From contig NZ_WUBR01000001.1 in the NCBI RefSeq assembly GCF_009807005.1, positions 620,001 to 684,000 on the forward strand: 64,000 nt of DNA, given 5' to 3'. The stretch is from Aurantiacibacter rhizosphaerae. GTDB lineage: Bacteria > Pseudomonadota > Alphaproteobacteria > Sphingomonadales > Sphingomonadaceae. Below the pieces are notes generated by a model. It saw only the letters and a program-made list of their open reading frames with translations. It did not search any database and had not been told where the DNA came from. Below, piece by piece: positions 19,547 to 46,995 of the stretch; position 1 is the stretch's first letter; the number at the start of each line of letters is the position of its first letter. The position numbers and the translations under genes are program-made.

Positions 19547-19600
19547 GGCATCGACCGTCCCCTAGCGCCACTCCTGTCCAGCTATTTGGAAGAAACCGCC

Positions 19601-20107
19601 ATGACACTCGAAACAACACTTCAGCAGATTAATGATCTGCCGCTTTCCGCAGCCATTCGCGAGAACATCAATGCCTTTCCGATGCTGGAATCGCTGCACG
19701 TTCTGGCCGTCGCCATCGTATTCGGCACGATCCTGGTGGTGGACCTTCGCCTGTTCGGCATCGCCTCGCACCGCAGCAGCGCACAGCGCCTGTCGGCAGA
19801 ACTGCTGCCCTACACTTGGGGCGCTTTCGTTCTGGCCGTGATCACCGGCGTGCTGATGTTCATCACCAACCCCATTTCCTATGCCAACAACACCGAATTC
19901 CTGATCAAGCTGATCCTGATCGCGGTGGCCGGGCTGAACATGGTGTGGTTCCATTCCACCACCTATCGCCGGATTGCCGAATGGGATGAGGATATGCCGC
20001 CGCCGACTGCCGCGCGTATCGCCGGCGCGGTATCGTTCGTGCTGTGGACGGCCGTGATCTTCCTGGGCCGCTGGATCGGCTTCACGCTGGAGTTCTTCTT
20101 CTTCTAG
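19601..20107 (+). CDS. Four-helix membrane protein (DUF6644-like), second copy
   Basis: A 168-residue paralogue of the preceding gene. It has the same four-helix layout: LESLHVLAVAIVFGTILVVD, LRLFGIASHR, YTWGAFVLAVITGVLMFI, FLIKLILIAVAGLNMVWFHS and WTAVIFLGRWIGF, ending with a run of five aromatics or acid (EFFFF). The His in helix 1 and the WF-HS histidine are candidate haem or metal ligands. The start ATG at 19601 follows GGAAG; a TTG 15 bases earlier is in frame but poorly placed. Function is unknown; an electron-transfer or small-solute role next to a cytochrome c is speculative. Confidence 0.75.
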   Translation: MTLETTLQQINDLPLSAAIRENINAFPMLESLHVLAVAIVFGTILVVDLRLFGIASHRSSAQRLSAELLPYTWGAFVLAVITGVLMFITNPISYANNTEFLIKLILIAVAGLNMVWFHSTTYRRIAEWDEDMPPPTAARIAGAVSFVLWTAVIFLGRWIGFTLEFFFF

Positions 20108-21213: not shown

Positions 21214-21374
21214 TTCACGCGCATGCTATTGGCCGATTATGCAAGGGGTCAATCCCTACCTGCAATTTACAGTAAGCCCCCCAAAAGCCGAAACCCGCTG
21301 ACCTACCCACGCATCGCGATGCGATATCCAAAGCACGATAATTGCTGGATCGACAAGGGTTTGAGAGGTGTACG

Positions 21375-22601: not shown

Positions 22602-22644
22602 CCTGCGCCTGGTCCTTCCCTCATCTCAAGAAAAGCGAGTTTCC

Positions 22645-23067
22645 ATGACAAAAGTCATCAAGGTCAAGACCGGTAACAAGTTCGAGGAGCACGGCTCCTA
22701 TTCCCGCCTGGTAGCGGTTGACGACATGATCTACGTGTCCAACACCGCCGGTCGCAATCCGCGCACCAAGGAATTTTCGGAAGACCTGGCTGAGCAGACC
22801 AATCAGGTGCTGGACAATATCTCCACCGCGCTGGCCTCTGTCGATGCCGTGCTGGAAGATGTGGTATCGGCGCGCGTCTATGTGCAGTTTCCAGAGAATA
22901 TCGACGTGATCATGGAAGCCTATGGCAAGCGTATGCGTGGCATCAATCCCGTCCTCACCATGACATGCCCGCCGCTCGGCTCCGCCCAGTACAAGGTGGA
23001 GATCGACGTCACCGCCATTCGCGGTGTGTCGAAGGCGGACGTGGAAGAGCGCCTGATCACGCTCTGA
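22645..23067 (+). CDS. RidA family protein
   Basis: A 140-residue RidA/YjgF/UK114 protein (FEEHGSYSRLVAVDDMIYVS, NTAGRNPRTKEF, QTNQVLDNISTAL, DVVSARVYVQFPEN, VLTMTCPPLGSAQYKVEID). Classical RidA has an arginine near residue 105 and a Glu close to the C-terminus; here the equivalent stretch is GINPVLTMTC, so the canonical arginine is replaced and it belongs to a RidA side family. These hydrolyse reactive imines or enamines released by amino-acid oxidases. It sits between the cyclodeaminase-like gene and a FAD amino-acid oxidoreductase, which fits exactly. The ATG at 22645 has AAGCGAG upstream. Confidence 0.9.
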   Translation: MTKVIKVKTGNKFEEHGSYSRLVAVDDMIYVSNTAGRNPRTKEFSEDLAEQTNQVLDNISTALASVDAVLEDVVSARVYVQFPENIDVIMEAYGKRMRGINPVLTMTCPPLGSAQYKVEIDVTAIRGVSKADVEERLITL

Positions 23068-23121
23068 TCGCCGCCAGATCCGCCACGGCCACCCACCTTC
23101 TCCAGCAAGAGAGTTTGTCCC

Positions 23122-24414
23122 ATCGCCCCCCAAATAGATCCTGTTTCCACGTCGAACACCTTCCCGAGTGAGACCAAGGTCGTCATCATCGGCGGGGGTA
23201 TCGTCGGTCTGTCCACGGCGCTGTGCCTGGCAGAACGCGGCATTCCGGTCGTCGTGCTGGAGAAGGGGCGGATCGCCGGGGAACAGTCTTCGCGGAACCT
23301 CGGGTGGGTGCGCAAGGTCATGCGTCCGCCGGTGGACCTGCCGATGGCGCAGGCGGCAGATCGCCTATGGGCCGCAATGCCTGAGCGGGTGGGGGACGAT
23401 TGCGGCTTTCGTACCTCTGGCATTGCCTATGTTTCCCGCACCGAACAGGAACAGGAGGTTTACGAAGGCTGGCTGAATACGGTGGAGGGATCGGGCGTCG
23501 ATTCCCGCCTGCTAACCCCTGCGCAAATCGCAGATCTGGCACCCGGCAGCACGGGCGAATGGGTCGGCGGTATTATCACCCCGTCGGATGGCCGCGCGGA
23601 GCCGACCAAGGCATCCAGCGCAATCGCCAAGGCAGCCATGGCCAAGGGGGCCATCATCGTGGAAAATTGCGCCGTGCGTACGCTCGACATGACGGCAGGC
23701 GCCGTCAGCGGCGTGGTGACCGAGCATGGCGCGATCGCGTGTGAGCAGGTGGTGCTGGCAGGCGGCGTATGGTCGCGCCGCTTCCTCGCCAATCACGGCG
23801 TGCAACTGCTCACCCTGCCGCTGGTTGCAGCGGTTTTGCGTACCGATCCCATGGAGGGGCCGACCAATTGTGCGGTGGGCGGCGCCGATTTCTCTTTCCG
23901 TAAAAGGCTGGATGGCGGGTATACGATCACGCAGCGCGGCGCGCTGTTCGCCCCGCTTACGCTGGATCACCTGCTGATCGGCCTGGATTACCTGCCAACC
24001 CTGATCGCGCAATGGCGCAACCTAAGGGTTTCGCTGGGGCGCGAATTCGTGGCCGATTTCAAACTGCCGCGCCGGTGGAAGGCCGATGAGACATCGCCGT
24101 TTGAAATGGTGCGGACGATGGACCCGCCGGTGAACGAGGGGCTGAACCAGGAAGCCATGCGCAACCTGATCGCGGCCTGGCCGGAATTCCAGCAGGCGAA
24201 AATCGCGCAGCAATGGGGCGGCATGATCGATGTGACGCCCGATTCCATGCCGGTTATCAGCCCAGTCGATGCGCTGCCAAATCTGATGCTGGCAACAGGG
24301 TTTTCAGGCCATGGCTTTGGCACCGGGCCTGCCGCTGGCGCTCTGGTGGCTGACATGCTGACAGGCGACACACCGATCATCGATCCGGAGCCTTACCGGC
24401 TGGGTCGGTTCTGA
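23122..24414 (+). CDS. FAD-dependent oxidoreductase (DAO family), start codon non-canonical
   Basis: About 430 residues of a D-amino-acid oxidase/dehydrogenase-type flavoenzyme. The FAD motif is VVIIGGGIVGLSTAL, followed by VLEKGRIAGEQSSRNLGWVR. The C-terminal FAD motif is MPVISPVDALPNLMLATGFS GHGFGTGPAAG. It would oxidise a C-N bond to an imine, handed to RidA. No ATG, GTG or TTG occurs in frame between the RidA stop (23067) and a GTG at 23254 that lies after the FAD motif. The frame is open throughout, and AAGAGAG lies eight bases before an ATC at 23122, which I take as the probable start. Alternatives are a real loss of the start codon or a sequence error. Confidence 0.82.
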   Translation: MAPQIDPVSTSNTFPSETKVVIIGGGIVGLSTALCLAERGIPVVVLEKGRIAGEQSSRNLGWVRKVMRPPVDLPMAQAADRLWAAMPERVGDDCGFRTSGIAYVSRTEQEQEVYEGWLNTVEGSGVDSRLLTPAQIADLAPGSTGEWVGGIITPSDGRAEPTKASSAIAKAAMAKGAIIVENCAVRTLDMTAGAVSGVVTEHGAIACEQVVLAGGVWSRRFLANHGVQLLTLPLVAAVLRTDPMEGPTNCAVGGADFSFRKRLDGGYTITQRGALFAPLTLDHLLIGLDYLPTLIAQWRNLRVSLGREFVADFKLPRRWKADETSPFEMVRTMDPPVNEGLNQEAMRNLIAAWPEFQQAKIAQQWGGMIDVTPDSMPVISPVDALPNLMLATGFSGHGFGTGPAAGALVADMLTGDTPIIDPEPYRLGRF

Positions 24415-25322: not shown

Positions 25323-26858
25323 TCAGCCGAAGGCGTCCGCGCTTTCCAGCCGCATGCAAACGGCCTTCGGCTCGGTAAAGGCGTTGATCGCCTCGGTCCC
25401 GAACTCGCGGCCAAGGCCGGACATCTTGTTGCCACCGAAGGGCATCGAGAGATCGAGGATGTTGTGCGTGTTGAGCCAGACCGTGCCGGCATCGATCCGC
25501 TCCGCCAGGATATGCGCGCGATCGAGGTTGTTGGTCCAGATACTGGCCGCCAGCCCATATTCCGACTGGTTGGCCAGCGATACGAAATCGGCAGGATCCT
25601 CCACGCGCATGGCGCAGACGACGGGGCCGAAGATTTCTTCCCGCATCACGGTCATATCCGATGTGACATCGGCCAGAACGGTGGGGCGGTAGTACCAGCC
25701 ATCGCCCGATCCGCTTTGGCCGCCAGCCATCGCCGTGGCACCCTCTGCCACACCAGCATCCACCAGGCTGCGAACGCGATCCTGCTGGCGTGCAGAGATC
25801 AGCGGGCCGATCTGGGTGGAGGGATCGAAGGGTGAACCCATCTGCATTTCATCGGCGATGCGGCTGACGCCTTCCATTACCTTGTCGTAAATCGGTGCTT
25901 CTACCAGCAGCCGCGAACCGGCGGTGCAGATCTGCCCGGAATTGGAGAAGATCGCTGCCGCCGCGCCGGGAATGGCACGCTCCAGATCGGCGTCCGCCAG
26001 GATGATGGTGGGCGATTTGCCGCCCAGTTCCAGCGTCACGCGTTTCATGGTGCGAGCCGACGCTTCGAGAATGCGCTGACCCGTGGCGGTGGAGCCGGTG
26101 AAGGCGATCTTGCGCACCAGCGGGTGGTCCACCAGGGCGGCACCGGCATCTGTGCCAAGCCCGGTCACGATGTTTACCGCGCCTGCGGGAAAGCCTGCCT
26201 CCGCGATCAATTCACCCAGCCGCAGCGTGGTGAGGGAGGATTCTTCCGAAGGCTTCAGCACCACCGTGCAGCCAAAGGCAATCGCCGGGGCCAGCTTCTG
26301 AATGGCCTGGCCGATGGGGAAATTCCACGGCGTGATCCCGCCGATAACGCCCACGGGCCGCCGCTCTGTATAGGCGCGGTAAAGCGCGTCTTCCGGCACC
26401 AGCGGATTGTGGGTGACGTATTCGCCGTTGATCTTGGACGCCCAGCCCGCAAAGTAGCGCAGGCCGTCAATCGTGAACTGCAGGTCGATGGCCTGCGTCA
26501 CGGCCAGCAGCTTACCACTGTCCAGCGCTTCCAGCGCGGCCAGCTCGTCGCGGTGCTTCTCCACCAGCAAGGCAAGGTTTTCCAGCAACCGCCCGCGATC
26601 CAGCGGACGCATCCGGCGCCATTCACGGCTTTCGAAACAGGCATGCGCGGCCTTTACCGCGCGATCGACATCGGCCGCATTGCAGGCGGGAAAGGCCATG
26701 ATGCTTTTGCCGGTTGCCGGATCGATAGCGTCGATGGTCTTGGTGGAGCCTGAAGGTTCAACCAACTTCCCGTCGATCAGCAGGCGGCCGCTGGGGAGTT
26801 TGGCAGATGATGCAGCGCGAGAATGATCTGGCGCGGCCGTTTGTTCTTGGGTCGTCAT
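25323..26858 (-). CDS. NAD(P)-dependent aldehyde dehydrogenase
   Basis: A 511-residue ALDH of the betaine-aldehyde / gamma-aminobutyraldehyde type. Motifs are ITPWNFPIGQAIQKLAPAIA, FTGSTATGQRI, the general base in LELGGKSPTIILADADLE, and the nucleophile in FSNSGQICTAGSRL. The start follows CAGGAG. It is transcribed just after an APC amine/amino-acid permease (two-base gap) and converges with the amine-oxidation operon. Together they suggest import of an amine, oxidation to an aldehyde by a flavoenzyme, then oxidation to an acid here. Its stop codon abuts that of the EamA gene with no base between. Confidence 0.93.
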   Translation of the reverse strand: MTTQEQTAAPDHSRAASSAKLPSGRLLIDGKLVEPSGSTKTIDAIDPATGKSIMAFPACNAADVDRAVKAAHACFESREWRRMRPLDRGRLLENLALLVEKHRDELAALEALDSGKLLAVTQAIDLQFTIDGLRYFAGWASKINGEYVTHNPLVPEDALYRAYTERRPVGVIGGITPWNFPIGQAIQKLAPAIAFGCTVVLKPSEESSLTTLRLGELIAEAGFPAGAVNIVTGLGTDAGAALVDHPLVRKIAFTGSTATGQRILEASARTMKRVTLELGGKSPTIILADADLERAIPGAAAAIFSNSGQICTAGSRLLVEAPIYDKVMEGVSRIADEMQMGSPFDPSTQIGPLISARQQDRVRSLVDAGVAEGATAMAGGQSGSGDGWYYRPTVLADVTSDMTVMREEIFGPVVCAMRVEDPADFVSLANQSEYGLAASIWTNNLDRAHILAERIDAGTVWLNTHNILDLSMPFGGNKMSGLGREFGTEAINAFTEPKAVCMRLESADAFG

Positions 26859-26860
26859 GA

Positions 26861-28369
26861 CTAGCTCCTGGAGGGGGCCGCACTTGCGGAAGACTGGGGC
26901 GCTGAACCATCGGCTGGGGTGGCCACGTCGCCTTCCACGTGGGTGGAGCCCACGCTGGCGTGAATGTCGGGCCGGTACTTGCGCAGGTAAATGCCGTGCA
27001 GCAGGCCCATGGTGATCAGCACCAGGAACAGCAGCGGCAGGCTGTTTACGATAACTAGATCCGTGCCGGTCAGTGCGGAATAATTGTCGAGCGAAAGATA
27101 GGTGATCACCGCGATGATCAGGCCACCGGTAAGCGGGGCCACGGTCTTGCCGAAGGAATATTCACCACGCCGGGCGAAGAACAGCGGGATCGACAGCGAT
27201 GTTGCCGCGATCAGGATTTCCAGCCCCACCGCGCCCATGGAAGACAGGCTGGTCGTCAGGCTGAGCAGGGGATCGAGCCCGGCAATCGCGAACGCGCCGA
27301 TCACCACGGTCAGCACCACCGTAAGCAGCAGGCATGCCACATAGGGAGAACCGTGACGCGGGTGAATGCGGCCCAGTTGTTGAGGGATCAGGCCATCGCG
27401 CGACAGGGCGTAGATGTAGCGGGCGATGTTGTTGAAGAAACCGATTGCGGCGGCAAACAGGCTGGTAACGGTCAGCAGGCTGAAGGCCTCCCGGCCAATG
27501 CGGCCCAGATATTCTGCGGCAATGCTGGTGACCAGGCCACCCGGATCGGCAGCGGCGACTTCCTTGATCTTCTCCGGGCTGACCGCCAGCACGAGGCACC
27601 AGGATGACAGCACGTAGAACGTGCCGAGGATCAGCACGGCCCCATATGTGGCGCGCGGGATATTGCGCCGCGGATTGCGCGCTTCTTCCTGATAGATTGC
27701 CGAAGCTTCAAAGCCGATGCAGCCGTTGATTGCGTAGATCAGCGCAATGCCAAGGCCCGGCGCAAAAATCGTGGTGGGCATGAAGCTGGAGAAATCCAGC
27801 CCGTCCAGACCGACATGATACAGGATCATGATGTCGATCAGCAGGATCAGACCGACTTCCAGCAGCAACGCAATGGCGAGGACTTTGGCTGCCAGGCTGA
27901 TCTTGTGATAGCCAAGCCAGGTAACCGCAGCGATCGTGATGGCCGCCCAGATTTCCCACCGTGTCGCCAGTCCGAAAGCCGACTGGAACAGATCGGCCGC
28001 AAAATACGCCATGGCCCCGATGACGGAGGCCGCGGCGCAGATATAGGCGGTAACCGCGACATAGGCGGCGGCAATCCCGGCCTCCTTGTTCAGGCTTAGC
28101 GCGATGTAGGCATAGAAAGCGCCAGCGTTGCGCACATGCGGTATCATCCGCACGTAACCCATGGCGAACAGCATCATGACGCCGCAGACCAGCAATTGCG
28201 TGCCGGGCATGCCAGCGCCATTGCCGAAGGCGAGTGCCAGGGGAATAATTCCGGCCAGCACCCCCATCGGGGCCGCGCAGGCCAGGATCATGAAAATGAT
28301 GTCGCCCGCGCCAAGGGACCCGCTCAGGGAGCCGGTGCCTTCTGCCTGTCTCATGCCGTCATCGCTCAT
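26861..28369 (-). CDS. APC-family amino acid/amine permease
   Basis: A 502-residue inner-membrane transporter of the amino acid-polyamine-organocation superfamily with about twelve helices. The unwound helix-1 signature is visible in IIFMILACAAPMGVLAGIIP, and YAINGCIGFEASAIYQEEAR matches the helix-6 GFE motif that lines the substrate site. It would import an amine or amino acid with a cation. It is followed after two bases by the aldehyde dehydrogenase and starts a short operon. The C-terminal 40 residues are hydrophilic and low-complexity (DGSAPQSSASAAPSRS). The substrate is not defined. Confidence 0.92.
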   Translation of the reverse strand: MSDDGMRQAEGTGSLSGSLGAGDIIFMILACAAPMGVLAGIIPLALAFGNGAGMPGTQLLVCGVMMLFAMGYVRMIPHVRNAGAFYAYIALSLNKEAGIAAAYVAVTAYICAAASVIGAMAYFAADLFQSAFGLATRWEIWAAITIAAVTWLGYHKISLAAKVLAIALLLEVGLILLIDIMILYHVGLDGLDFSSFMPTTIFAPGLGIALIYAINGCIGFEASAIYQEEARNPRRNIPRATYGAVLILGTFYVLSSWCLVLAVSPEKIKEVAAADPGGLVTSIAAEYLGRIGREAFSLLTVTSLFAAAIGFFNNIARYIYALSRDGLIPQQLGRIHPRHGSPYVACLLLTVVLTVVIGAFAIAGLDPLLSLTTSLSSMGAVGLEILIAATSLSIPLFFARRGEYSFGKTVAPLTGGLIIAVITYLSLDNYSALTGTDLVIVNSLPLLFLVLITMGLLHGIYLRKYRPDIHASVGSTHVEGDVATPADGSAPQSSASAAPSRS

Positions 28370-28536: not shown

Positions 28537-29340
28537 TTACTCGCCGTTGGCAGGGGCCAGCGCGATCACCCGCAGCGGGCTGCCGGAGCCGCCCTTGATC
28601 TTCAGCGGTGTGGCCACGATGACGGATCCGAACACCGGCAACTGATCCAGATTGGTCAGGCACTGCAGGCCATACCGGCCATTGCCGTGCAGGATGGAGT
28701 GGGCAGGCAGCGGCTCATCGAAAGAGCTTGCCTGCCCTGCATCGGTGCCCACGGTTTCCACGCCCAGACCGATGCAGTCACGCTCCTGCACCAGAAAGCG
28801 CATCGCGTCGGCATCGGGGCCGGGCGAATGCGCGCCATCATCCTTCAGGTTGAGATATTCCAGCGTGCCGACCTTTTTCGACCAGTTGGAGCGGAGCAGG
28901 ATCCAGTGCTTTTCCGGGATCTGGCCATTGGCTTTCTCCCAGTTTTCCAGAAAGGCGCGGGTGACGATGAAATCTTCGTCCTGCGCAGATTCATCGGCGA
29001 TATCGATCACCACGGCGGGATGGATGAAATCACGCGGGGGAATGGCATCGACCGTGCCGTTGGGAACGTCGCGGCCTGTGATCCAGTGCGCCGGGGCATC
29101 GAAATGCGTGCCGGTATGCTCGTTCATGGAAATATTGTTCCAGTACCAGGCGGGGCCATTGCCATCGTATCGCGACACGGTTTCCATGCGGAATGGCTCA
29201 CACTGGCCGAATTCTGACGGCAGTACGATCACTGGAAAATCGGTGGAGAGGATATTGGTCAGGTCCACCACGCGAAGATCGCCGCTGGCGATCTCGCCGA
29301 TGAGGCCGCTGAGCGCGGTGTTTGATGATTGGTCGGTCAT
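28537..29340 (-). CDS. Cyclase-family protein (kynurenine formamidase-like metal hydrolase)
   Basis: A 267-residue member of the putative cyclase/arylformamidase family. The metal-binding signature is MNEHTGTHFDAPAHWITGRD, preceded by DLTNILSTDFPVIVLPSEFG. The general base and later ligand region is around HPAVVIDIADESAQDEDFIV. Relatives hydrolyse N-formylkynurenine, isatin or cyclic intermediates. It overlaps the DUF35-SDR gene by four bases (ATGA), so it is coupled to the thiolase-CoA ligase operon as its last gene. Its length is usual for the family. The substrate is unknown, though ring opening before CoA activation is plausible. Confidence 0.9.
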   Translation of the reverse strand: MTDQSSNTALSGLIGEIASGDLRVVDLTNILSTDFPVIVLPSEFGQCEPFRMETVSRYDGNGPAWYWNNISMNEHTGTHFDAPAHWITGRDVPNGTVDAIPPRDFIHPAVVIDIADESAQDEDFIVTRAFLENWEKANGQIPEKHWILLRSNWSKKVGTLEYLNLKDDGAHSPGPDADAMRFLVQERDCIGLGVETVGTDAGQASSFDEPLPAHSILHGNGRYGLQCLTNLDQLPVFGSVIVATPLKIKGGSGSPLRVIALAPANGE

Positions 29341-30551
29341 AGGTTTTTCTCCCGGGCATAGAGCATCGGATCGTCCAGCCAGCGCGCCATCGCATCGCTG
29401 GCCACGTCGCCGACGCAGCTTTGTTCGCGCCCCTGCTGCAGCGCATCCACGATGGTTGCGGCGATGCGGGCGGGGGCAACTTTGGGTGGAGGCATCGTCT
29501 GATGGTCCTCGTCATCCACCGGTCCCACGAACACGGAGAGGACGCGTACGCCGCTGCTACGCATTTCGTGGCGGAAGGACTGGAGCAGAGAGAGGCGCGC
29601 AGCTTCCGCGGCGGAAAGGGCGGACTGGTCTGCCGCGCCAGACAAGGCCTGGCTGGAAATGATATCCACGAATGCGCCGTGCGGCCGCCCGGCCAGCATC
29701 GGCGCGCAGGCCCCCGCCAGCCGCGCCATGCCGATGGCGGAAATCTCGAACGCGCGGCGCATTTCGACGGGGTTCGATCCAATGCTGACCCCGCCTGCAC
29801 GGACATGGCGCGCCGTGTTGATAACCAGGTCGAGCGGCCCGGCAATCTTGCTCAACGCCTCGGCCAGACTGACCTGATCGACGATGTCGAGCGGCATGCT
29901 CTGCACATTGTCCAACTGCAGGGCGGCCAGCTGGGTATCGGACTGGCGACCGGGGGCCTGAATGCCGGCAATAATCAATCCCGCGCCAGCCTTGTGCAAT
30001 GCGGTGACCACGGCCTGCCCGATGGCGCTGCGCGCATCGGTAACCAGCACCGTCTTGCCTTTCAGCGGCACAGTGAATTCGCGGAACTGCGGGTCTGCCA
30101 TGTCGAAATCTCCATTGGGCGGCACGGCGAACAAGGCCGCATTTCCGCCGCGATCCAGCATCAGACGGATTTCCGCCCGATCATGCGTGGCAAGATCGCG
30201 GTGCAGGTGAGCCAGGGCTACAGGGCCTGCATCCAGCGCCACCTTCCCCATGCGCCAGGGCAGGTGATCGCGGAAATACAGATCGGTGGATACGCGGATC
30301 GTCGTCTCGCTCAGCACCAGCGCACCGGCGGGAACATCCTGCCATGTCAGTTCACCCCAGCACACTGGGCACGCATCGCGCGGCGGATAGGTTATCTCTC
30401 CGCAATCGCAGCATTTCTGCAGCACAAAGCGGCCCTGCGCCGCGCGCGCCGACATGGCGTGCATCGCCCGGCTTCGTGCAGGGGGCGAGAGGTGCCGCGC
30501 CTTCTTGCGCGCTATCGGATCGCGGGTTTCGCGGTTGCGCCAGTCGCTCAT
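29337..30551 (-). CDS. DUF35 (zinc ribbon + OB fold) fused to degenerate SDR domain
   Basis: A 404-residue two-domain protein. Residues about 25-160 form a DUF35 unit: a zinc ribbon with CCDCG and CPVCW cysteine pairs, then an OB-fold (GALVLSETTIRVSTDLYFRD). Residues about 175-400 are SDR-like, but the glycine motif reads TDARSAIGQAV instead of TGxxxGIG, and the catalytic Tyr-x-x-x-Lys position reads LSAAE. It is therefore unlikely to be an active dehydrogenase. DUF35 proteins are partners of thiolase-like enzymes; the thiolase gene is next door. The ATG at 30551 overlaps the thiolase stop by four bases, which fixes the start over a longer upstream frame. Confidence 0.85.
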   Translation of the reverse strand: MSDWRNRETRDPIARKKARHLSPPARSRAMHAMSARAAQGRFVLQKCCDCGEITYPPRDACPVCWGELTWQDVPAGALVLSETTIRVSTDLYFRDHLPWRMGKVALDAGPVALAHLHRDLATHDRAEIRLMLDRGGNAALFAVPPNGDFDMADPQFREFTVPLKGKTVLVTDARSAIGQAVVTALHKAGAGLIIAGIQAPGRQSDTQLAALQLDNVQSMPLDIVDQVSLAEALSKIAGPLDLVINTARHVRAGGVSIGSNPVEMRRAFEISAIGMARLAGACAPMLAGRPHGAFVDIISSQALSGAADQSALSAAEAARLSLLQSFRHEMRSSGVRVLSVFVGPVDDEDHQTMPPPKVAPARIAATIVDALQQGREQSCVGDVASDAMARWLDDPMLYAREKNL

Positions 30552-31720
30552 GCCAATGCCTTCAACGCGGCGGCGCCTGTGCACACGCCGCGATCATAAT
30601 TTACCAGGCCGAAGCCGGAGACGACCGAGATAGTCGCATCGGGCACCTGATCGCCCAGCGGTTGCCGGATGATCTGCCGCATTCCCTCGGTCACATTCTG
30701 GAAACCGCCCGCTGCGCCCGCCTGCCCGGCAGATAGCTGTCCGCCATTGGTGTTCAGCGGCAGGTCGCCATTTAAGTCGAAACTGTTGTTCTGGATGAAC
30801 TCGGCAACCTTGCCCTTCTCGCAAAAGCCGAGATCTTCCAGTTGCATGGCCACGATGACGGGATAATCGTCATAGACCTGCAGGGTATCGACATCGCCGG
30901 GCGCGATGCCCGCCGCGTTCCAGAAGGTATCGATATCCATGGCCCAGCCGCCGCGCAGCTGCACGGGGTCTTCGGGAAAGGCATTGTGCCGTTCGATCGT
31001 GGCCATGATCGTGGCCGCCTGCAAACCGCGCTCTGCGGCAATTTCCGGCGTGGTGACGATGAACGCCTCCGCCCCGGCGCAGGGCATCACGCAATCGAAC
31101 AGGTGAACGGGATCGGCGATGGGGCGCGCGCCCAGATAGGCTTCCAGCGTCAGCGGCTTTCGCTGCAGGGCCAGCGGGTTGGACATGGCATTGGCGCGCT
31201 GCGCCACGCACAGCTTGCCGAAATCTTCCCGGCTGACGCCAAACTCGCGCATGTAGCTGTCAGTGATCAGCGCAAAGGTCGCATTGGGTCCGCCAAAGCC
31301 ATAGGGATAGACGGCATCCTGCGAAAAGCGGGAGAAGGTGGAGAGACTGTGGCGGAAGCTGTCGATCTGATTGGTGTCAGCCGCCACGCAAACCACCAGT
31401 TCGGCATCGCCGCATTGCACGGCGCGGGCGGCGCGGCGCATGGCCATCACGCCGCTGGCCCCGCCTGTGGGCAGGTGATCCAGCCAGCGCGGCGTCAGGC
31501 CAAGGTGCTGCGTCATGCCAACGGCGGAATCGGGGACGGAGGAAAAGCTGGAGAAGCAGAAGCCATCGATATCGGCTGACGTAACGCCAGTGTCGCGCGA
31601 TAGCTGTTTCAGCGCCTTGCCCGCCCACCAATGCGCGCTTTCGGAAGAGAAGCGGACATAGGGCACTGTGGTTGGCGCGCAGACCACCACGCCATCATAA
31701 GGGGCGGGTGCCCGGCTCAT
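30548..31720 (-). CDS. Thiolase-family protein lacking the canonical Cys and His
   Basis: A 390-residue SCP-x/lipid-transfer-type thiolase fold. Where thiolases carry the nucleophilic Cys, this reads LPTGGASGVMAM. The usual GHPxGxSG is GQAGAAGG (His to Gln). The position of the HDCF-like motif reads LQVYDDYPV. A Cys near the end (GVCTGAAAL) remains. This pattern resembles Ltp2-type retro-aldolases that pair with a DUF35 protein in steroid side-chain removal rather than true thiolases. The next gene encodes a DUF35 fusion, strengthening that reading. Four-base overlaps on both sides show tight coupling with the CoA ligase and the DUF35-SDR protein. The substrate is unknown. Confidence 0.87.
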   Translation of the reverse strand: MSRAPAPYDGVVVCAPTTVPYVRFSSESAHWWAGKALKQLSRDTGVTSADIDGFCFSSFSSVPDSAVGMTQHLGLTPRWLDHLPTGGASGVMAMRRAARAVQCGDAELVVCVAADTNQIDSFRHSLSTFSRFSQDAVYPYGFGGPNATFALITDSYMREFGVSREDFGKLCVAQRANAMSNPLALQRKPLTLEAYLGARPIADPVHLFDCVMPCAGAEAFIVTTPEIAAERGLQAATIMATIERHNAFPEDPVQLRGGWAMDIDTFWNAAGIAPGDVDTLQVYDDYPVIVAMQLEDLGFCEKGKVAEFIQNNSFDLNGDLPLNTNGGQLSAGQAGAAGGFQNVTEGMRQIIRQPLGDQVPDATISVVSGFGLVNYDRGVCTGAAALKALA

Positions 31721-33333
31721 ACGCTCCGCTTCTTCAATGCGCGGGTATCGTGCAATTGACCGGCCTCCAGATATTTGACAGCCATATCCTTCAATGCAGC
31801 GCGCAGGATCTTTTCAGTAGGCGTGCGCGGCAGTTCTTCCACGAAGCCGATCCAGCCCGGCACCTTGTAATAGGCCATCTGCTCCAGCCCCCACTGTGCA
31901 ATCTGCGTGGCCGTGTCGCCATCGCCAGATGCGCCTTCCTCGGTCACGATTAGGGCGGCAACCTCGTCCCCGCGCACGGCATCGGCAACTGCCGCCACCG
32001 CAACCTGATCGATAGCCGGATGCTTGGCCAGGATCGATTCCACCTCGACCGCAGAGATATTCTCGCCCGAACGGCGGATCACGTTCTTCTTGCGATCGAC
32101 GAAGCGCAGATCGCCATCGGCATCGCTGGACACGATATCGCCGGTGTGGAACCAGCCGCCTTCCCATGCCTCCGCCGTTGCCTCCGGATTTTTCAGATAT
32201 TCGCGGAAGAAGCCGTAGCGCGGATTGTCGCCAGCGCGGCGCACCAGCAATTCTCCCGGTGCATCGCCCTCCACGTCGTTTCCATTGTCATCGACGATGC
32301 GGATTTCCACCGCGTCGGTTGGGTGGCCGAAGCAGGCGGTGCCAACCTTGCGCGGCTCCTCATGGGCGCTGATCACGCCGCCGCTGCCGGTTTCGGTCAT
32401 CGCCCATGCCTCGATCAGTGGGAAGCCGAAACGCTCCTCGAACGGTGCGTGCAGCTTTGCCGGTGAGCCTGCGCCGAAACCGAAGCGAACATTGTGTTCG
32501 CGGTCTTTCGGGCTGGGCCTGGCGGTCATCAGCATGGCCGGCATCACGCCCAGGTAATGCAGGCAGGTGGCCTTGCTATCACGCACGGAATCCCACCAGG
32601 TGGAGGGGTGGAACCGATCCAGCACCGTCAGGCAGCCGCCCACGGTGATCATCGCCATGACGGATACCGCCAGCGCATTCATGTGGAACAATGGCAACGG
32701 GGTGAGCATCCGCTCCTCCCCCATGCGCAGCGAGATCAGCCCGCCGACATCGCGATACCAATCGCCCGAATGGAGGAAATATTCATTGCTGAGGACACAG
32801 CCCTTGGGCCGCCCCGTCGTGCCGGAGGTATAGAGCAGCGCAGCTTCGCGCTGGCTGTCTTCGCCCGAAAGCGTGCCACCGCGGCGCAGCAGGGGCCGAA
32901 CGGGATCGTTCGGCCTGATTGGCGCGGTGGAGCTGCCCACTGCCTTTGCGGCCTCTGCAACTTCCTCGTGCCTTTCGGCGACGACGAAGGCCGCCGCCAT
33001 TTCGGAATGCTCGATCAGATATTCCAGCTCGCTACTGCGCAGGTCCGGATTGATGGGCACGATGGAGGCACCCAGGCTGTTTGCGGCAAGGAATATCTCG
33101 ATGAAATCGGGGCGGTTCTGCAGCAACAGGCCGATACGCGTGCCCTGGCCATATCCGGCCGCTGCCAGCGATTCCTTGCGCGCCCGCACGCGCTTCAGCA
33201 TTTCGGCATAGGTGATCTCACCCGCCGGAATGCCGTAAATGCCCGCCGTTTCGGGAAGTACATTGAGGAATGGCTTGTCAGCCCAGCGTTCAGCCGTGGC
33301 CTTGAAGCGCCCGAAAATCGTCGCTTGTTCCAA
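31717..33333 (-). CDS. Acyl-CoA synthetase (AMP-binding; CaiC-like)
   Basis: A 538-residue ANL-superfamily ligase. The P-loop is LLYTSGTTGRPKGCVLSNEY, the A5 region is EAWAMTETGSG, the hinge region is FHTGDIVSSDADGDLRFVDR, and the C-terminal lysine is in RTPTEKILRAAL. It activates a carboxylic acid to its CoA thioester via an adenylate. It is the first gene of the operon, overlapping the thiolase gene by four bases. Upstream, at 33378-33411, are palindromic ATATG-type sites matching that before iorA, so it is likely repressed by one of the MarR proteins encoded just upstream. Confidence 0.92.
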   Translation of the reverse strand: MEQATIFGRFKATAERWADKPFLNVLPETAGIYGIPAGEITYAEMLKRVRARKESLAAAGYGQGTRIGLLLQNRPDFIEIFLAANSLGASIVPINPDLRSSELEYLIEHSEMAAAFVVAERHEEVAEAAKAVGSSTAPIRPNDPVRPLLRRGGTLSGEDSQREAALLYTSGTTGRPKGCVLSNEYFLHSGDWYRDVGGLISLRMGEERMLTPLPLFHMNALAVSVMAMITVGGCLTVLDRFHPSTWWDSVRDSKATCLHYLGVMPAMLMTARPSPKDREHNVRFGFGAGSPAKLHAPFEERFGFPLIEAWAMTETGSGGVISAHEEPRKVGTACFGHPTDAVEIRIVDDNGNDVEGDAPGELLVRRAGDNPRYGFFREYLKNPEATAEAWEGGWFHTGDIVSSDADGDLRFVDRKKNVIRRSGENISAVEVESILAKHPAIDQVAVAAVADAVRGDEVAALIVTEEGASGDGDTATQIAQWGLEQMAYYKVPGWIGFVEELPRTPTEKILRAALKDMAVKYLEAGQLHDTRALKKRSV

Positions 33334-33444: not shown

Positions 33445-33906
33445 TCATTTCTGGAGGCGCGACAGGTTCTCCAGCATCTTCACGATCACCTTCTGGCACG
33501 TTGCCAGTTCCTCGCTGGTGGTGCCTTCGCGAAGGGCGGCGAAATAGTCCTCCATCACCGGCCAGTTCTCTTCCAACTGTTTGCGCCCCAGCGGCGTCAT
33601 CATGATTTCGCGGCGGCGCAAATCTCCCTTGGGGATGCGGCGTTCGATCAGGCCCTGCGCCGCCATTGCATCCACCGCGCGGCTGGTGGTCGACTGTTCG
33701 CTGAAGGTGCGTTCCGCGATCTCGTTGATGGTGAGGCCGTCCTCGATATTGAGGATGGACAGCGTCCTGATGTCCACCAGGCTGACTTCGCTGTCGCTCA
33801 AGGCGCGCTTTTGCGCTTGCTGCCCCAGGTTGGACAAGCGGTTCACCATATAGGGCAGGTAGCGTTCCAGCGCGTCATAGGTTGCGGGCGGCGCGGTTTT
33901 TGTCAT
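33445..33906 (-). CDS. MarR-family regulator (first of tandem pair by position)
   Basis: A 153-residue winged-helix MarR protein. The recognition helix region is INEIAERTFSEQSTTSRAVD and the wing contains DLRRREIMMTPLG; dimerisation helices flank these. Such repressors leave DNA on binding aromatic acids or CoA thioesters. Its start overlaps the stop of a second MarR gene by four bases, so both are made from one transcript. It lies directly upstream of the CoA ligase operon and its palindromic sites and is a good candidate for their regulator. The two MarR proteins are clearly divergent in sequence. Confidence 0.9.
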   Translation of the reverse strand: MTKTAPPATYDALERYLPYMVNRLSNLGQQAQKRALSDSEVSLVDIRTLSILNIEDGLTINEIAERTFSEQSTTSRAVDAMAAQGLIERRIPKGDLRRREIMMTPLGRKQLEENWPVMEDYFAALREGTTSEELATCQKVIVKMLENLSRLQK

Positions 33907-34397
33907 GGCTCTTCTTTTCTTCCGTTGAGATCAGCCCGTTGACCAAGAATCTGCAACGATTGCAAAGCCTGTTGCAGATCTGCATCCCCAATCCCGTCAA
34001 ACAGACTGTGCAAAAACGCATCATGGCGACGCTGGGCAGCGCGATAAAGCTGCGCCCCTTCTGGCGTCACCTGCACCACGAATGCGCGGCGATCGCTCGG
34101 GCTCATTTCGCGTGTTATCAGCCCATCGGCTGCAAGGCGGCTGGTGAGGCCGGTGACATTGCCGCCGGTAACCTTCAGCTTGCGCGAAAGAGCACCCTGC
34201 GTCAGCCCCTCGGGCGCCTGGCAAAGCTGCGCCAGCGCATCGAACTTGGCCAGGGTAATGCCATGCTCTTCCAGCAAGACACGGTTCAGGCGATTGAAGA
34301 CGGCGCTGTGGAAGTCCATCGCGGTCTTCCAGATGCGCGCCTCGACAATGCGATCATCGTCCTGCGATCTGGTGGCTGGCACGCAGTCTCCCGGCAT
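33903..34397 (-). CDS. MarR-family regulator (second of tandem pair)
   Basis: A 164-residue MarR protein with helix-turn-helix QGALSRKLKVTGGNVTGLTS and wing SDRRAFVVQVTPEG. A longer N-terminal helix (DRIVEARIWKTAMDFHSAVF) precedes the winged helix. It ends overlapping the next MarR gene by four bases. Upstream lies iorB with a 91-base gap that holds a short stem, so the pair may be cotranscribed with iorAB or use its own promoter. Its ligand is unknown; arylpyruvates, arylacetates or their CoA esters would fit the neighbouring enzymes. Heterodimer formation with its partner is possible but unproven. Confidence 0.9.
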   Translation of the reverse strand: MPGDCVPATRSQDDDRIVEARIWKTAMDFHSAVFNRLNRVLLEEHGITLAKFDALAQLCQAPEGLTQGALSRKLKVTGGNVTGLTSRLAADGLITREMSPSDRRAFVVQVTPEGAQLYRAAQRRHDAFLHSLFDGIGDADLQQALQSLQILGQRADLNGRKEEP

Positions 34398-34488: not shown

Positions 34489-36054
34489 TTATTCGAAAGA
34501 TCGAATAGTTTTGATCAGCCCGTCCAGATCGCCACCTTCGCCATCGCGGATCGCGGTTTCGCGCAGACGCTTTGCCCATTCGGCGGCGTCGTCCCGTTCG
34601 GCGAACCGTTCGATCTCGTTCGTGACCCGGGCGAACTTGGACAGTCCGCGTGCATGGGTATCCGAATACCCTTTGATCAGCCGGCGACATTTCACGGTCT
34701 CCACGCCCAGCGCATAATTGCGCGTGGCCATGTCGCGCACCAGCGCAAGCCAGGCGTCGCGATGGTCGATTTCCTCCTGATGCCGCAGCGATGATCTGCG
34801 CATACCGCGCATGCCCGCCACGAAATACAGCATGAGGAACCAGCCCGGCGAATAGGTGCGCACCCGCCGCCCCTTGCTGACGCGCCGATCCAGCCAGCCA
34901 TACAGGCCCTCCCGGTTTTGCAGCCAGCGGCCCAGCCCGGCGGGCATCAAGCCGACGACTTCTTCCATGCGCGGGTGCATATATTCGGTCGTGTGGAAAA
35001 TCGTATCGTCGCTGAGGCCGATCTCGTCGGCGATACGGCCACGGCGGGCAGCCCGCGTCTTCAGATCGGCAACGCGCACCACATCATCATAAGCCATGGC
35101 GTTGGCCACATATTTGGCGCCCGCGAGGGTCAGTTCGAAATCATGCGCCTCGCCGCCCAGTTCGGTGTCCAGGCGGAACAGATCTTCCACGATATCGAGA
35201 TATTCCGCGCCATATTCGGCATCCTGGAAATCCACCACCTTGGACAGGCCCAGCCGCGCCATCGTGGCGATCTGCGGGCGCAGGCCCTGCTCCAGCCGTT
35301 CCACCAGCCTCGCCGCGCGGGGCGATGTGGGCGGGGTGGCCAGCGGCTGTACGAGCACCGGTTCCTCCAGAGCCTCCTTCGCCTCTTCATCGGTCTGCTG
35401 GCTGCGCGCATAGGCCGCATCGAAAGTGCGGATGCTGGCAGCCACGCCCTTGCCGCCTTCGGCGATCACGGCGTGGTATTCCTCGGTCGAGAAGGGCAGG
35501 GCGCCTGACGCTGCCAGCGCGCCGAACATGGCAGAGGAGATGACGCTACCATTTGCGACGGCCAATGCGTTCATATCGTAGATGATCTGCCGCTGCGCAG
35601 TCACGCCGATGGCGTCCACCACCGCGCTGCTATCTGCAATGCCTTCCCCCGGCGCGCTCTTTTCAGCGATCGCAAGGGAGCGGTGGCTCGATGCGATCAA
35701 AGTGGTGCGATCGGGTGTAACGATGCCGCGCAGGATGGATCGGCCTGCCTCGATGAATTCAGACGCGATCACCACGTCGACATCGCCGGGTGTCGGCATC
35801 TGCGCCAGGATCGGGGATTTGCCGTCCTGCGGGCGCATCATTTCAACGTAATAGATCGTCGCACCGGTACGCTGCGCCACGCCGGGCACGGAGGTGGACT
35901 GCGCGATCCAGCCCGCATTCTCTGCCAGCTTCACGATCCAGCCTGTCAACACGCCGCCGCCCTGGCCGCCCATGGCCACGATGGCGAGGGAGATCGGACG
36001 CTCGGTTGCATCGCCGGCCCGTTCGAGGGGAAGCTTCACGGTTTCATCGCGCAT
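34489..36054 (-). CDS. iorB: Indolepyruvate:ferredoxin oxidoreductase, beta-type subunit (long form)
   Basis: A 521-residue protein. The N-terminal ~220 residues are the pyruvate-oxidoreductase gamma/IorB catalytic domain (IVAMGGQGGGVLTGWIVKLA, MRPQDGKSPILAQMPTPG). The remaining ~300 residues are a helical extension found in long-format alphaproteobacterial IorB proteins. With IorA it oxidatively decarboxylates arylpyruvates (indole-, phenyl- or hydroxyphenylpyruvate) to aryl-acetyl-CoA and reduces ferredoxin or another acceptor. Its start codon overlaps the iorA stop by one base (TGATG). A small stem directly follows the stop. The product aryl-acetyl-CoA would link transamination of aromatic amino acids to downstream CoA chemistry. 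Confidence 0.9.
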   Translation of the reverse strand: MRDETVKLPLERAGDATERPISLAIVAMGGQGGGVLTGWIVKLAENAGWIAQSTSVPGVAQRTGATIYYVEMMRPQDGKSPILAQMPTPGDVDVVIASEFIEAGRSILRGIVTPDRTTLIASSHRSLAIAEKSAPGEGIADSSAVVDAIGVTAQRQIIYDMNALAVANGSVISSAMFGALAASGALPFSTEEYHAVIAEGGKGVAASIRTFDAAYARSQQTDEEAKEALEEPVLVQPLATPPTSPRAARLVERLEQGLRPQIATMARLGLSKVVDFQDAEYGAEYLDIVEDLFRLDTELGGEAHDFELTLAGAKYVANAMAYDDVVRVADLKTRAARRGRIADEIGLSDDTIFHTTEYMHPRMEEVVGLMPAGLGRWLQNREGLYGWLDRRVSKGRRVRTYSPGWFLMLYFVAGMRGMRRSSLRHQEEIDHRDAWLALVRDMATRNYALGVETVKCRRLIKGYSDTHARGLSKFARVTNEIERFAERDDAAEWAKRLRETAIRDGEGGDLDGLIKTIRSFE

Positions 36055-38210
36055 CAGACAGCCTCCACCAGCACGCGGTTACGGTCCCGGCGCCTTTGCA
36101 GGAAGCCGATCAGCGCCAGCGAGGCGCGCGCCTTGAACCTGTCCCACCATGTGGGATTCTGGATGATATCCGCACGATAGAATGACGGGCACAGAACCGC
36201 CGCCTCCGACACTTCGCCGCAATTGCCGCAGCCGACGCAGGAATTGTCGATTGCCGCAACGGGATCGTCCCGCAGGGGATCGTCCAGGTGTTTGACCGAT
36301 AGCGACGGGCAACCCGAAAGGCGGATGCAGGCGTGATCGCCGGTGCACACGTCCTCGTCCACGCCGAAACGCTCCTTCACCACGCGCTTGCCTGATTTTA
36401 CCGCCGCAGCAATCTGCGGCTTCTCGCGGCGCTGCTTGTTGAGCATGCATTCGGAAGAGGCGATGATGATCTTCGGGCCTTCCTCCTCGGTGGTGAGGGC
36501 CTCTGTCAGAACCTCTTTCATCTTGCCCACATCATAGGTGCGATCAACCTCTCGCACCCATTTCGCCCCGATACCGCGAACGGCCTTGTCGATCGGGTTG
36601 TTGGTGTTGCGAGACTTGTTGAACGCGCGGGAGGAAAGGATGTCCTGCCCACCCGTGGCGGATGAATAGAAATTGTCGACGATCAGGAAAACGCCGTCGT
36701 GCTTGTTATAGATGGCATTGCCGATGCCGCTGGTCAGGCCGTTGTGCCAGAAGCCGCCATCGCCCATTACTGCGATGGACCGTTTGCCGGTGCTGCGGCT
36801 GAACGCCGATGCCGATGCGCCGCCAAGGCCAAAGCCCATCGTGGTGTTGCCGATGTTGAAGGGCGGCAGGATGGAGAACAGGTGGCAGCCGATGTCGGCC
36901 GATACGTGATGTTCTCCAAGATCCTCGTTCACCATCTTCATCGCGGCGAAGATCGGCCGTTCCGGACAGCCGGTGCACAGGCCCGGCGGGCGCGCTGGGA
37001 CGACTTCCTTCAGTTTCTCAACCGATGGCATGGCCAGCACGTCAGACGCATCGGGGCGCGGCGGGCGATTGCCAAGCAGCTGCGGCTCCGTCGCTTCCAG
37101 GAATTGCTCCAGCCCTTCCATGATCGCGGCAACGGAATAATCGCCGCCCATGGGCAGAACGTCCTTGCCGAAGATGCGCGCCTTGTGATGCTTGCGGCGC
37201 AGCACCGTGTTCAGGGACTGCTCCAGATATTCCGGCTGCCCCTCTTCCACCATCAGGACGGCGTCCTTGTCGCGCGCGAAATCCTCGATCTCGCTGTCGA
37301 TCATCGGGTAGGTGACGTTCATCACGTACATCGGGATGCGCGTGTTGCCATAGGCATCCGACAGGCCGAGATATTGCAGGGCGCGGATCACGTTGTTGTA
37401 CATGCCGCCCTGCACGACGATGCCGACCTTGCCGTCTTCCGGGCCGAACCATTCGTTCAGCTTGTTGTCGCGGATGAAGTCTATCGCGGCTGGCAGGCGC
37501 TGTTTGATCTTCTCCTGCTCATGCTCGTAAGCTGCGGGCGGGAGCACGATCCGGTCCAGTTCGCGGGTGGGATTGTTTAGCGCGTCATCAATTGAAAATT
37601 CCGGGCGGACATTGTCCTTCGCCACGAAGCTGCCGTGCATGTGGCAGGTGCGCACCCGGACCTCCAGCATGACGGGGGTGTTCGATGCCTCGGAAAGCTG
37701 GAAGCCTTTCTCGATCAGGTCGACAATACGGGCATGGTCGGGACGAGGGTCCAGCAGCCACATCTGCGATTTCATGGCAAAGGCGTGGGTACGCTCCTGC
37801 ATGATGGAGGAGCCTTCGCCGTAATCCTCACCGATGATAACCATCGCGCCGCCGGTAACACCGCCCGACGCAAGATTGGCCAGCGCGTCAGACGCGACGT
37901 TGGTTCCCACCGTGGATTTCCACGCGACCGCCCCGCGCAGCGGATAATTGACCGAGGCCGAAAGCATGGCGGCCGCGGTTGCTTCACTGGCGGAGCTTTG
38001 GAAGTTGACGCCGAGTTCGCCGAGAATGTCCTGCGCATCGGACAGCACATCCATCAGATGCGAGATCGGCGATCCCTGATAGCCGCCGACATAGGAAACC
38101 CCGGATTGCAGCAAGCCCTTGGTGATCGCCAGGATGGCCTCACCCTTGAAGACTTCGCCTTCGCCGAGGCGCAAATGTTCCACTTCCTTGGCGAATGAAC
38201 GTTCAGCCAT
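36054..38210 (-). CDS. iorA: Indolepyruvate:ferredoxin oxidoreductase, alpha subunit
   Basis: A 718-residue ThDP/iron-sulfur subunit. The N-terminal domain contains GYQGSPISHLMDVLSDAQDI and KSTVGTNVASDALANLASGG. The ThDP-binding region is VMGDGGFWHNGLTSGIGNAI, preceded by CTGCPERPIFAAMK. The C-terminal part carries clustered cysteines (CTGDHACIRLSGCP and CVGCGNCGEVSEAAVLCPSF) for [4Fe-4S] clusters. It works with IorB in arylpyruvate oxidation. The start at 38210 lies 18 bases from a perfect ATATGCA/TGCATAT palindrome, so transcription is very likely under MarR-type repression. The gene is full length. Confidence 0.93.
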   Translation of the reverse strand: MAERSFAKEVEHLRLGEGEVFKGEAILAITKGLLQSGVSYVGGYQGSPISHLMDVLSDAQDILGELGVNFQSSASEATAAAMLSASVNYPLRGAVAWKSTVGTNVASDALANLASGGVTGGAMVIIGEDYGEGSSIMQERTHAFAMKSQMWLLDPRPDHARIVDLIEKGFQLSEASNTPVMLEVRVRTCHMHGSFVAKDNVRPEFSIDDALNNPTRELDRIVLPPAAYEHEQEKIKQRLPAAIDFIRDNKLNEWFGPEDGKVGIVVQGGMYNNVIRALQYLGLSDAYGNTRIPMYVMNVTYPMIDSEIEDFARDKDAVLMVEEGQPEYLEQSLNTVLRRKHHKARIFGKDVLPMGGDYSVAAIMEGLEQFLEATEPQLLGNRPPRPDASDVLAMPSVEKLKEVVPARPPGLCTGCPERPIFAAMKMVNEDLGEHHVSADIGCHLFSILPPFNIGNTTMGFGLGGASASAFSRSTGKRSIAVMGDGGFWHNGLTSGIGNAIYNKHDGVFLIVDNFYSSATGGQDILSSRAFNKSRNTNNPIDKAVRGIGAKWVREVDRTYDVGKMKEVLTEALTTEEEGPKIIIASSECMLNKQRREKPQIAAAVKSGKRVVKERFGVDEDVCTGDHACIRLSGCPSLSVKHLDDPLRDDPVAAIDNSCVGCGNCGEVSEAAVLCPSFYRADIIQNPTWWDRFKARASLALIGFLQRRRDRNRVLVEAV

Positions 38211-45734: not shown

Positions 45735-45809
45735 GATGTTTCCCATGCCCGGTTTCGCGCCGAATTGCGCCTGAACTCTTCATACTGACGTTGACTCTTG
45801 CGCATTTTA

Positions 45810-45823
45810 TTTTAAGCTTGCAA
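45810..45823. promoter_or_regulatory. Operator-like site between nitrilase and gentisate dioxygenase genes
   Basis: TTTTAAGCTTGCAA at 45810-45823 lies in the divergent promoter. It matches 13 of 14 bases of the reverse complement of the site at 41304 and 10 of 14 of those at 49232 and 51573. Confidence 0.55.
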
Positions 45824-45845
45824 CAAATTTCCATGGAGAGTGATC

Positions 45846-46973: not shown

Positions 46974-46995
46974 ACATTCAGATCAAGGACCTGTA

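Follow-up and report, generated by a model that had tools for sequence, protein, structure and literature searches.

A candidate DUF35-dependent retro-aldolase in an iad-type auxin-degradation operon of Aurantiacibacter rhizosphaerae

Two described systems, each pairing a thiolase-fold aldolase with a DUF35 protein, are among the closest known counterparts of the genes treated here: CtSal-CtShy of Comamonas testosteroni (9MYR), a bile-acid side-chain aldolase, and TcLtp2-ChsH2 (6OK1). In CtSal, Tyr302 is the base, Cys304 is the acid and is held by Gln347 and Gln352, and Gly89 lies at the substrate hydroxyl, while the catalytic residues of TcLtp2 are Tyr294 and Tyr344 (PMC12329534). Sal binds Shy through DUF35, and ChsH2 carries DUF35 alongside an inert MaoC domain (PMC11321319). 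Here we compare with these systems two adjacent genes, iadG and iadH, in a 64,000-nucleotide stretch of the Aurantiacibacter rhizosphaerae genome (contig NZ_WUBR01000001.1, positions 620,001 to 684,000), referred to as the window. We propose that their products probably form a DUF35-dependent, thiolase-fold retro-aldolase of the lower auxin (indole-3-acetic acid) pathway, a proposal based on homology, gene order, residue conservation, fold match and the loss of short-chain dehydrogenase/reductase (SDR) motifs.

Root growth is influenced by bacterial breakdown of auxin, and work to introduce iad genes into plant commensals is under way (PMC12633357). The iad region of Variovorax paradoxus comprises nine genes (C to K2) and leads to anthranilate; the preprint describing it names IadF an acyl-CoA (coenzyme A) synthase, IadG a ketothiolase, IadH an alcohol dehydrogenase and IadI a kynurenine-formamidase-like amidase (PMC12633357). 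So far, annotation has been the basis for assigning the carbon-carbon cleavage of this pathway to a thiolase acting with a dehydrogenase. A search of the open-access literature by titles and abstract openings found no retro-aldolase proposal for iad and no description of a DUF35-SDR fusion, and the available text of the preprint contains no mention of DUF35, aldol or Claisen and no word beginning with 'retro' or 'SDR' (PMC12633357). A retro-aldolase, if the assignment is true, would make the step redox-neutral, would explain the need for both G and H, and would connect the catabolism of auxin with that of steroids by a shared enzyme family. Beyond the original prediction, which had guessed at a side-chain retro-aldolase, we name a pathway, a candidate substrate, its products and the residues involved, and we suggest a correction to the current annotation.

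The operon and its pathway

In order of transcription on the minus strand, the genes run from an iorA-like and an iorB-like gene through two MarR genes to an AMP (adenosine monophosphate) ligase, the thiolase-like gene, the DUF35-SDR gene and a cyclase-fold gene:

36054..38210, minus strand: iorA-like gene IadA (NCBIfam IOR_alpha, 284 bits, below the cut-off of 650.9)
34489..36054, minus strand: iorB-like gene IadB (NCBIfam PRK08312, 688 bits, above the cut-off)
33903..34397, minus strand: MarR-family regulator (Pfam MarR_2, 54.6 bits)
33445..33906, minus strand: MarR-family regulator (Pfam MarR_2, 45.9 bits)
31717..33333, minus strand: IadF, AMP-forming acyl-CoA ligase (Pfam AMP-binding, 212.5 bits; homologue in 61 of the 80 loci surveyed below)
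30548..31720, minus strand: IadG, thiolase-fold protein and proposed retro-aldolase (163.5 bits to CtSal, 135.2 bits to TcLtp2; fold Z 48.3 to CtSal)
30863..30874, minus strand: YDDY motif of IadG (Tyr283-Asp284-Asp285-Tyr286) at the thiolase HDCF place (read in the sequence; invariant in 81 of 81)
29337..30551, minus strand: IadH, DUF35 fused to a pseudo-SDR (Pfam; mean predicted local distance difference test score, pLDDT, of the model 89.6)
30360..30413, minus strand: zinc-ribbon cysteines C47, C50, C61 and C64 in the DUF35 part of IadH (invariant in 72 of 72 fusions)
29340..30068, minus strand: SDR half of IadH (residues 162-404), in which the glycine motif and Tyr/Lys are missing (sequence, alignment, fold match)
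28537..29340, minus strand: IadI, isatin hydrolase by homology, cyclase fold (357.9 bits to isatin hydrolase A, 5nna)

The three junctions between the F, G, H and I genes are all ATGA four-base overlaps when read directly, just as the original prediction had it; such overlaps are frequent among co-transcribed genes and are not remarkable alone. Its coordinates span the F, G and H genes and omit the fourth, IadI, which is the most informative of them. The start of IadH is read as the ATG at 30551, not the mechanical GTG at 30584.

Judged by orthology and gene order, both of which match the iad locus, the four overlapping genes are the counterparts of iadF-G-H-I, known from auxin degradation in other bacteria. 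IadI aligns with isatin hydrolase A over residues 8-262 of its 267 and with isatin hydrolase B (4J0N) at 250 bits, whereas kynurenine formamidases score below 30 bits. This full-length homology, in which no notable difference was seen, includes the stretch EHTGTHFDAP, which we take to be the metal site. IadI is therefore, by homology, an isatin hydrolase, and this match points to auxin catabolism. The known markers of iad-like loci are iorB/iadB and iorA/iadA, and such loci are under MarR control (PMC9613470). Both marker genes are present at 34489-38210 (Pfam, NCBIfam matches), and the two MarR genes stand beside the operon (Pfam matches). The window thus shares with the iad loci of Variovorax paradoxus CL014 and Bradyrhizobium (PMC12633357, PMC9613470) the F-G-H-I order, iorA/iorB-like genes and MarR genes; unlike them it has no IadCDE oxygenase or IadJ-type SDR near the operon and no IadD orthologue in its genome, and the two MarR genes occupy the place that IadD and IadE hold in other iad loci. 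Against the locus of a genome that we take to be Variovorax (G862, whose IadD scores 984 bits, across 436 residues, with each of the two Variovorax IadD structures), the window proteins have identities of 65% for A (cut by the locus end), 45% for B, 55% for F, 59% for G, 40% for H and 53% for I.

When named genomes were scanned with an IadG alignment of 14 rows, at least 560 relatives were confirmed, and the best 80 loci were kept, with flanks of at most 8 kilobases (kb) and many short contigs, which limits the neighbour counts. The fused DUF35-SDR gene follows IadG directly in 72 of the 80 loci, so the arrangement is not due to chance; in four others DUF35 stands alone (L067, L079, L081 and L085, of which L079 and L081 are Alcaligenes), and the last four are cut by a contig end and were dropped from the adjacency count. 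A DUF35 protein therefore follows IadG in all 76 assessable loci, as the original prediction had noted for the window, and the fusion, which it had called an unusual architecture, turns out to be the usual form (72/76). Homologues of F occur in 61 of the 80 loci, and of A and B in 33 each. An isatin hydrolase is found in 72 of 74 judgeable loci, though not always adjoining IadH; it is absent in L041 and L064, six loci are unjudged, and in L079, L081 and L085 its gene lies upstream of oxygenase genes. An intact IadJ-type SDR accompanies IadD in 41 of 44 IadD-bearing loci (two of the other three are too short to tell and one is cut). It occurs in two of the 23 loci labelled as lacking IadD, one of which (L101) has an IadD of 397 bits and is labelled 'noD' in the tree because the label threshold is 400 bits; 13 short loci carry no tree label. 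Among genomes drawn by taxonomy, the fused protein has matches in 4 of 149 from the window's family, 11 of 385 from its class and 8 of 398 from its phylum (own genome included each time), and in 25 of 299 from the family of G862, some of these matches covering one part only (L006, L023, L024, L025, G990, G1150).

Active site of IadG and the pseudo-dehydrogenase half of IadH

By sequence, the closest solved proteins to IadG are CtSal (163.5 bits), the uncharacterised thiolase 4u4e (141.7) and TcLtp2 (135.2), followed by 7yvy (130), thiolase 6esq (87), BbsB (86.5) and PhlC (65.2). The predicted model of IadG (mean pLDDT 88.6, weak at residues 128-137) has CtSal as its first fold match, with Z 48.3 and a root-mean-square deviation of 2.6 over 375 aligned residues, and TcLtp2 as its second, with Z 45.9; the clear lead belongs to CtSal alone.

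The motifs GGASG, YDDY and GGQLSAGQAGAAGG are read directly in IadG. The original prediction had seen that the thiolase nucleophilic Cys and the GHP His are missing and that YDDY stands in the HDCF region, and the alignment bears this out: Gly86, Gly87, Tyr283, Asp284, Asp285, Tyr286, Gln328 and Gln333 are invariant in all 81 IadG sequences, and the four thiolase positions are all replaced, the nucleophilic Cys by Gly87, the HDCF His by Tyr283, the HDCF Cys by Asp285 and the GHP His by Gln333. The residues of a ketothiolase of the SCP2 type are thus absent in 81 of 81. In alignments to 7yvy and 6esq the nucleophilic Cys lies opposite Gly87 and the GHP-type His opposite or beside Gln333; thiolase 7yvy itself has Asp-Ala at the HDCF-type His/Cys positions. 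Position 89 was considered as the thiolase Cys site, since two of the 81 homologues (L056 and L105) have a Cys there (GGAC) with an otherwise unchanged YDDY site, and was rejected because the nucleophile aligns with Gly87, which is Gly throughout.

When CtSal and IadG are compared with a 24-residue chain offset, Tyr302, Cys304, Gln347, Gln352 and Gly89 of CtSal align with Tyr283, Asp285, Gln328, Gln333 and Gly87 of IadG. The base Tyr of the Sal/Ltp2 YDxx motif is kept in 81 of 81. IadG-IadH thus shares with CtSal-CtShy the fold, the base Tyr, the two Gln, the Gly at the hydroxyl and a DUF35 partner fused to another domain, while differing in the Asp at the place of the catalytic-acid Cys304, in a predicted substrate that is an indole and not a steroid, and in a partner with four zinc Cys instead of the reported C3H1 and with a dead SDR instead of a MaoC hydratase. 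With TcLtp2-ChsH2 it shares the fold, the DUF35 partner and the base Tyr of YDHF, and the bond that TcLtp2 cuts lies next to a hydroxylated ring carbon (C17), as we propose for IadG; the acid Tyr344 of TcLtp2 falls at or next to Gln333 in a gapped alignment, where CtSal has Gln352, and the His of YDHF is Asp in IadG. In terms of sequence, IadG has the base and glutamines of the aldolases, lacks the thiolase residues, and always carries Asp at a position that in the known aldolases is either Cys or else His, the latter with a separate Tyr.

IadH is one protein of 404 residues, with Pfam matches to zf-ChsH2 (41 bits, above the cut-off), adh_short (68 bits) and OB_ChsH2_C (22.5 bits, below its cut-off of 27.1). 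The original prediction held that DUF35 is fused here to an SDR-like domain without its glycine motif and Tyr/Lys, and in the window the SDR half indeed reads TDARSAIG in place of TGxxxGxG and LSAAE in place of YxxxK. Across an alignment of 72 fusions (the window and 71 loci, nine of the 80 being left out because of a contig edge, DUF35 only, or insufficient length, as in L064), TGxxxGxG occurs in none and Asp172 replaces the first Gly in all; the four invariant zinc cysteines are also present in the four stand-alone DUF35 proteins. The presumed Variovorax IadH reads TDGKTETG and FSASK, with a separate IadJ there reading TGGSAGIG and YSATK, so by its motifs it is also this pseudo-SDR, though the preprint calls it an alcohol dehydrogenase (PMC12633357). 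In the fold search with the IadH model, the SDR domain filled the list with SDR structures only, and among the matches listed its SDR half is closest to 5u4s (Z 33.7; next 27.9). That the pseudo-SDR is a decayed IadJ was rejected, the best score being 20.8 bits. The stand-alone DUF35 loci were likewise considered as proof that no SDR is needed, a claim that we narrowed to 'no fused SDR half' because a separate intact IadJ-group SDR lies beside DUF35 in L067, L079 and L085, and also in L081.

Proposed chemistry and competing explanations

In the proposed mechanism, IadF would make the CoA ester of dioxindole-3-acetate (DOAA). Tyr283 of IadG would then deprotonate the tertiary hydroxyl at C3, the bond joining C3 to the CH2 of the side chain would break, and a second residue, most likely Asp285 at the place of CtSal Cys304, would protonate the acetyl-CoA enolate, giving isatin and acetyl-CoA. 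The zinc-ribbon/OB (DUF35) part of IadH would be what holds IadG, the SDR half of IadH would be an inactive Rossmann domain serving structure or channelling, and IadI would hydrolyse isatin to isatinate. We infer the substrate, the retro-aldol chemistry, the complex, the role of Asp285 and the use of the same substrate in the window's organism. The retro-aldolase suggested by the original prediction is favoured, from sequence and model, by the closest sequence and fold relatives, the conserved base Tyr and pair of Gln, the lost thiolase residues, the DUF35 partner and a pathway context that points to a substrate closed to thiolase chemistry.

Work in Variovorax shows that deletion of F, G, H or I causes accumulation of C10H9NO4, assigned by the authors to DOAA, and that each of these deletions lowers anthranilate, so that all four genes are needed; C8H7NO2 accumulates when I is missing, both in the iadI deletion and in a strain carrying CDEFGH-JK2, and C8H7NO3 is seen with the complete gene set (PMC12633357). 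In the authors' view, a ketothiolase and a dehydrogenase remove the side chain reductively (PMC12633357). Because the hydroxyl of DOAA sits on C3, a quaternary carbon, a beta-keto intermediate should not be able to form, which would block thiolase chemistry. Retro-aldol cleavage of DOAA-CoA, on the other hand, would yield isatin and acetyl-CoA directly, with no reductant. The formulae agree: isatin plus water is C8H7NO3, as reported for the full pathway, whereas dioxindole plus water is C8H9NO3.

Several points weigh against this reading. The catalytic acid of Sal (Cys304) or Ltp2 (Tyr344) is not kept, Asp285 and Gln333 being found in 81 of 81, and CtSal is inactive as C304A, C304S or C304H (PMC12329534). 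The oxyanion Gln161 of CtSal is Pro (72) or Ala (9) in the 81 IadG sequences, and the TcLtp2 fold score of Z 45.9 ties with those of true thiolases such as 6esq (45.5). Tyr and Lys are both kept in 6 of 72 IadH, and according to a review DUF35 does not seem to matter for the aldolase and hydratase activities of ChsH/Ltp2 (PMC11321319). The metabolite found without IadI is C8H7NO2 and not isatin (C8H5NO2), so that later reduction of isatin by other enzymes must be assumed. Finally, the clade of the window has neither IadD nor a nearby IadJ-type gene (0/11 loci), which makes the substrate less certain there than in Variovorax.

The last point bears on a narrower alternative, which we consider unlikely: in the window's clade the same retro-aldol chemistry might act on another beta-hydroxyacyl-CoA, such as one from a substituted oxindole, an oxindole of other origin or a different aryl tertiary alcohol, in place of auxin-derived DOAA-CoA. 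An IadD orthologue was found neither in the window's own genome (best 31%) nor in any of the 10 other clade genomes searched, which do not include that of L046, nor in L047, which lies outside the branch (at most 34%, against 62-66% in three controls). There is no IadJ-type SDR near the operon in any of the 11 other clade loci, amine and amino-acid oxidation genes lying nearby instead, and the best SDR of the own genome reaches 39% to IadJ, SDRs being many and similar. What speaks for DOAA-CoA is the isatin hydrolase within the operon, at 357.9 bits, together with the conservation of IadG and its active-site residues between the window's clade and the oxygenase-bearing loci.

More improbable is the scheme proposed for Variovorax, inferred there from annotation (PMC12633357), in which IadG works as a ketothiolase, IadH is active as a dehydrogenase, and the two together with IadF remove the acetyl side chain reductively and leave dioxindole as the substrate of IadI. 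The C8H7NO2 that accumulates without IadI fits this scheme (PMC12633357). It is opposed by the absence of the thiolase residues in 81 of 81 and of the SDR glycine motif in 72 of 72, Variovorax included, by the four loci without a fused SDR half, by the homology of IadI to isatin hydrolases, and by the reported C8H7NO3, which is isatin plus water and not dioxindole plus water. A thiolase like the benzoylsuccinyl-CoA thiolase BbsAB or an acyltransferase like PhlABC, which share the thiolase fold and a DUF35 partner with IadG-IadH, is highly improbable in view of the much lower scores of BbsB (86.5 bits) and PhlC (65.2) than of CtSal (163.5), 83.9 bits to the NCBIfam BbsB model with its cut-off of 750, Gly in place of the nucleophilic Cys, and the lack of a third acyltransferase subunit in the annotation of the operon.

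Entry step and neighbouring genes

Twelve rows form the branch (support 100/95) that holds the window's IadG; they come from Erythrobacteraceae, Sphingomonadaceae, Azospirillaceae and an alphaproteobacterial metagenome-assembled genome without further placement. This clade of sphingomonads and azospirilla stands out as having the lower pathway without the known auxin oxygenase: as far as homology tells, the lower pathway is clear, and its entry step may differ from the known IadD-type oxygenation. Near the operon in the 11 other clade loci, within 8-kb flanks, lie an OCD-family gene (9), a permease (8), an aldehyde dehydrogenase (7) and a flavin adenine dinucleotide (FAD) oxidase (6). Two of these possibly belong to the entry route in the window:

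26861..28369, minus strand: amino-acid permease, possibly entry route (Pfam; homologue in 8 of 11 other clade loci within the flanks)
25323..26858, minus strand: aldehyde dehydrogenase, possibly entry route (Pfam; 74-82% homologue in 7 of 11 other clade loci)

A broader picture, possible but rather doubtful as a whole, would make IadG-IadH a third retro-aldol solution on the thiolase fold, using Tyr-Asp where the others use Tyr-Cys or Tyr-Tyr. It would act on the side chain of an indole and not of a steroid, and an inactive dehydrogenase would serve it as scaffold. In the window's clade it would be fed by a route other than IadCDE, for example from oxidised-tryptophan amines or amino acids (dioxindolyl-ethylamine, -alanine) processed by genes near the operon, namely those for the FAD oxidase, the RidA-like protein, the permease, the aldehyde dehydrogenase and the Ior-like proteins.

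Two Ring_hydroxyl_A genes occur in the own genome. The two-subunit Ring_hydroxyl_A oxygenase on contig C3 (L002) is 26% identical to IadD, lies near catechol ortho-cleavage genes, and has anthranilate and benzoate dioxygenase as its best models (197.8 and 197.6 bits, far below cut-off). It was considered as the clade-wide replacement of IadD and rejected, since only 3 of 25 genomes have an orthologue (E up to 1e-60); all three belong to the 11 genomes without IadD.

Other genes of the window and its genome are worth recording. At 21342-24414 on the plus strand lie an OCD-family gene assigned to tyramine oxidase subunit B (656 bits, above cut-off), a RidA-like gene and an FAD oxidase, and paralogues of the OCD and FAD genes occur on contig C3 (L009). 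Among listed papers on tyramine oxidase, none was found to bear on the OCD-family gene. The region C3:383000-421000 (L009, L010) holds Rieske alpha and beta subunits, a ferredoxin reductase, a catechol dioxygenase, a muconate-lactonising-type enzyme and an amidase, and perhaps serves anthranilate breakdown. A thiamine-diphosphate enzyme at 9607-11199 (plus strand; PRK07586, 588 bits, above cut-off; benzoylformate decarboxylase model, 168 bits) is a conceivable isatinate decarboxylase. At 44796-47907 there are a nitrilase-family gene, a gentisate 1,2-dioxygenase-like gene (317.9 bits, below cut-off) and an FAA hydrolase, and homologues of these are also found beside the iad module of L047. The neighbouring genes at 18962-19546 and 19586-20107 (plus strand) each encode a small DUF6644 membrane protein, and DUF6644 homologues adjoin the iad module in L036, L037, L039 and L046. 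Among the other loci surveyed, Aromatoleum evansii and A. toluvorans (L051, L059) have an iad-type locus with both IadD and IadJ.

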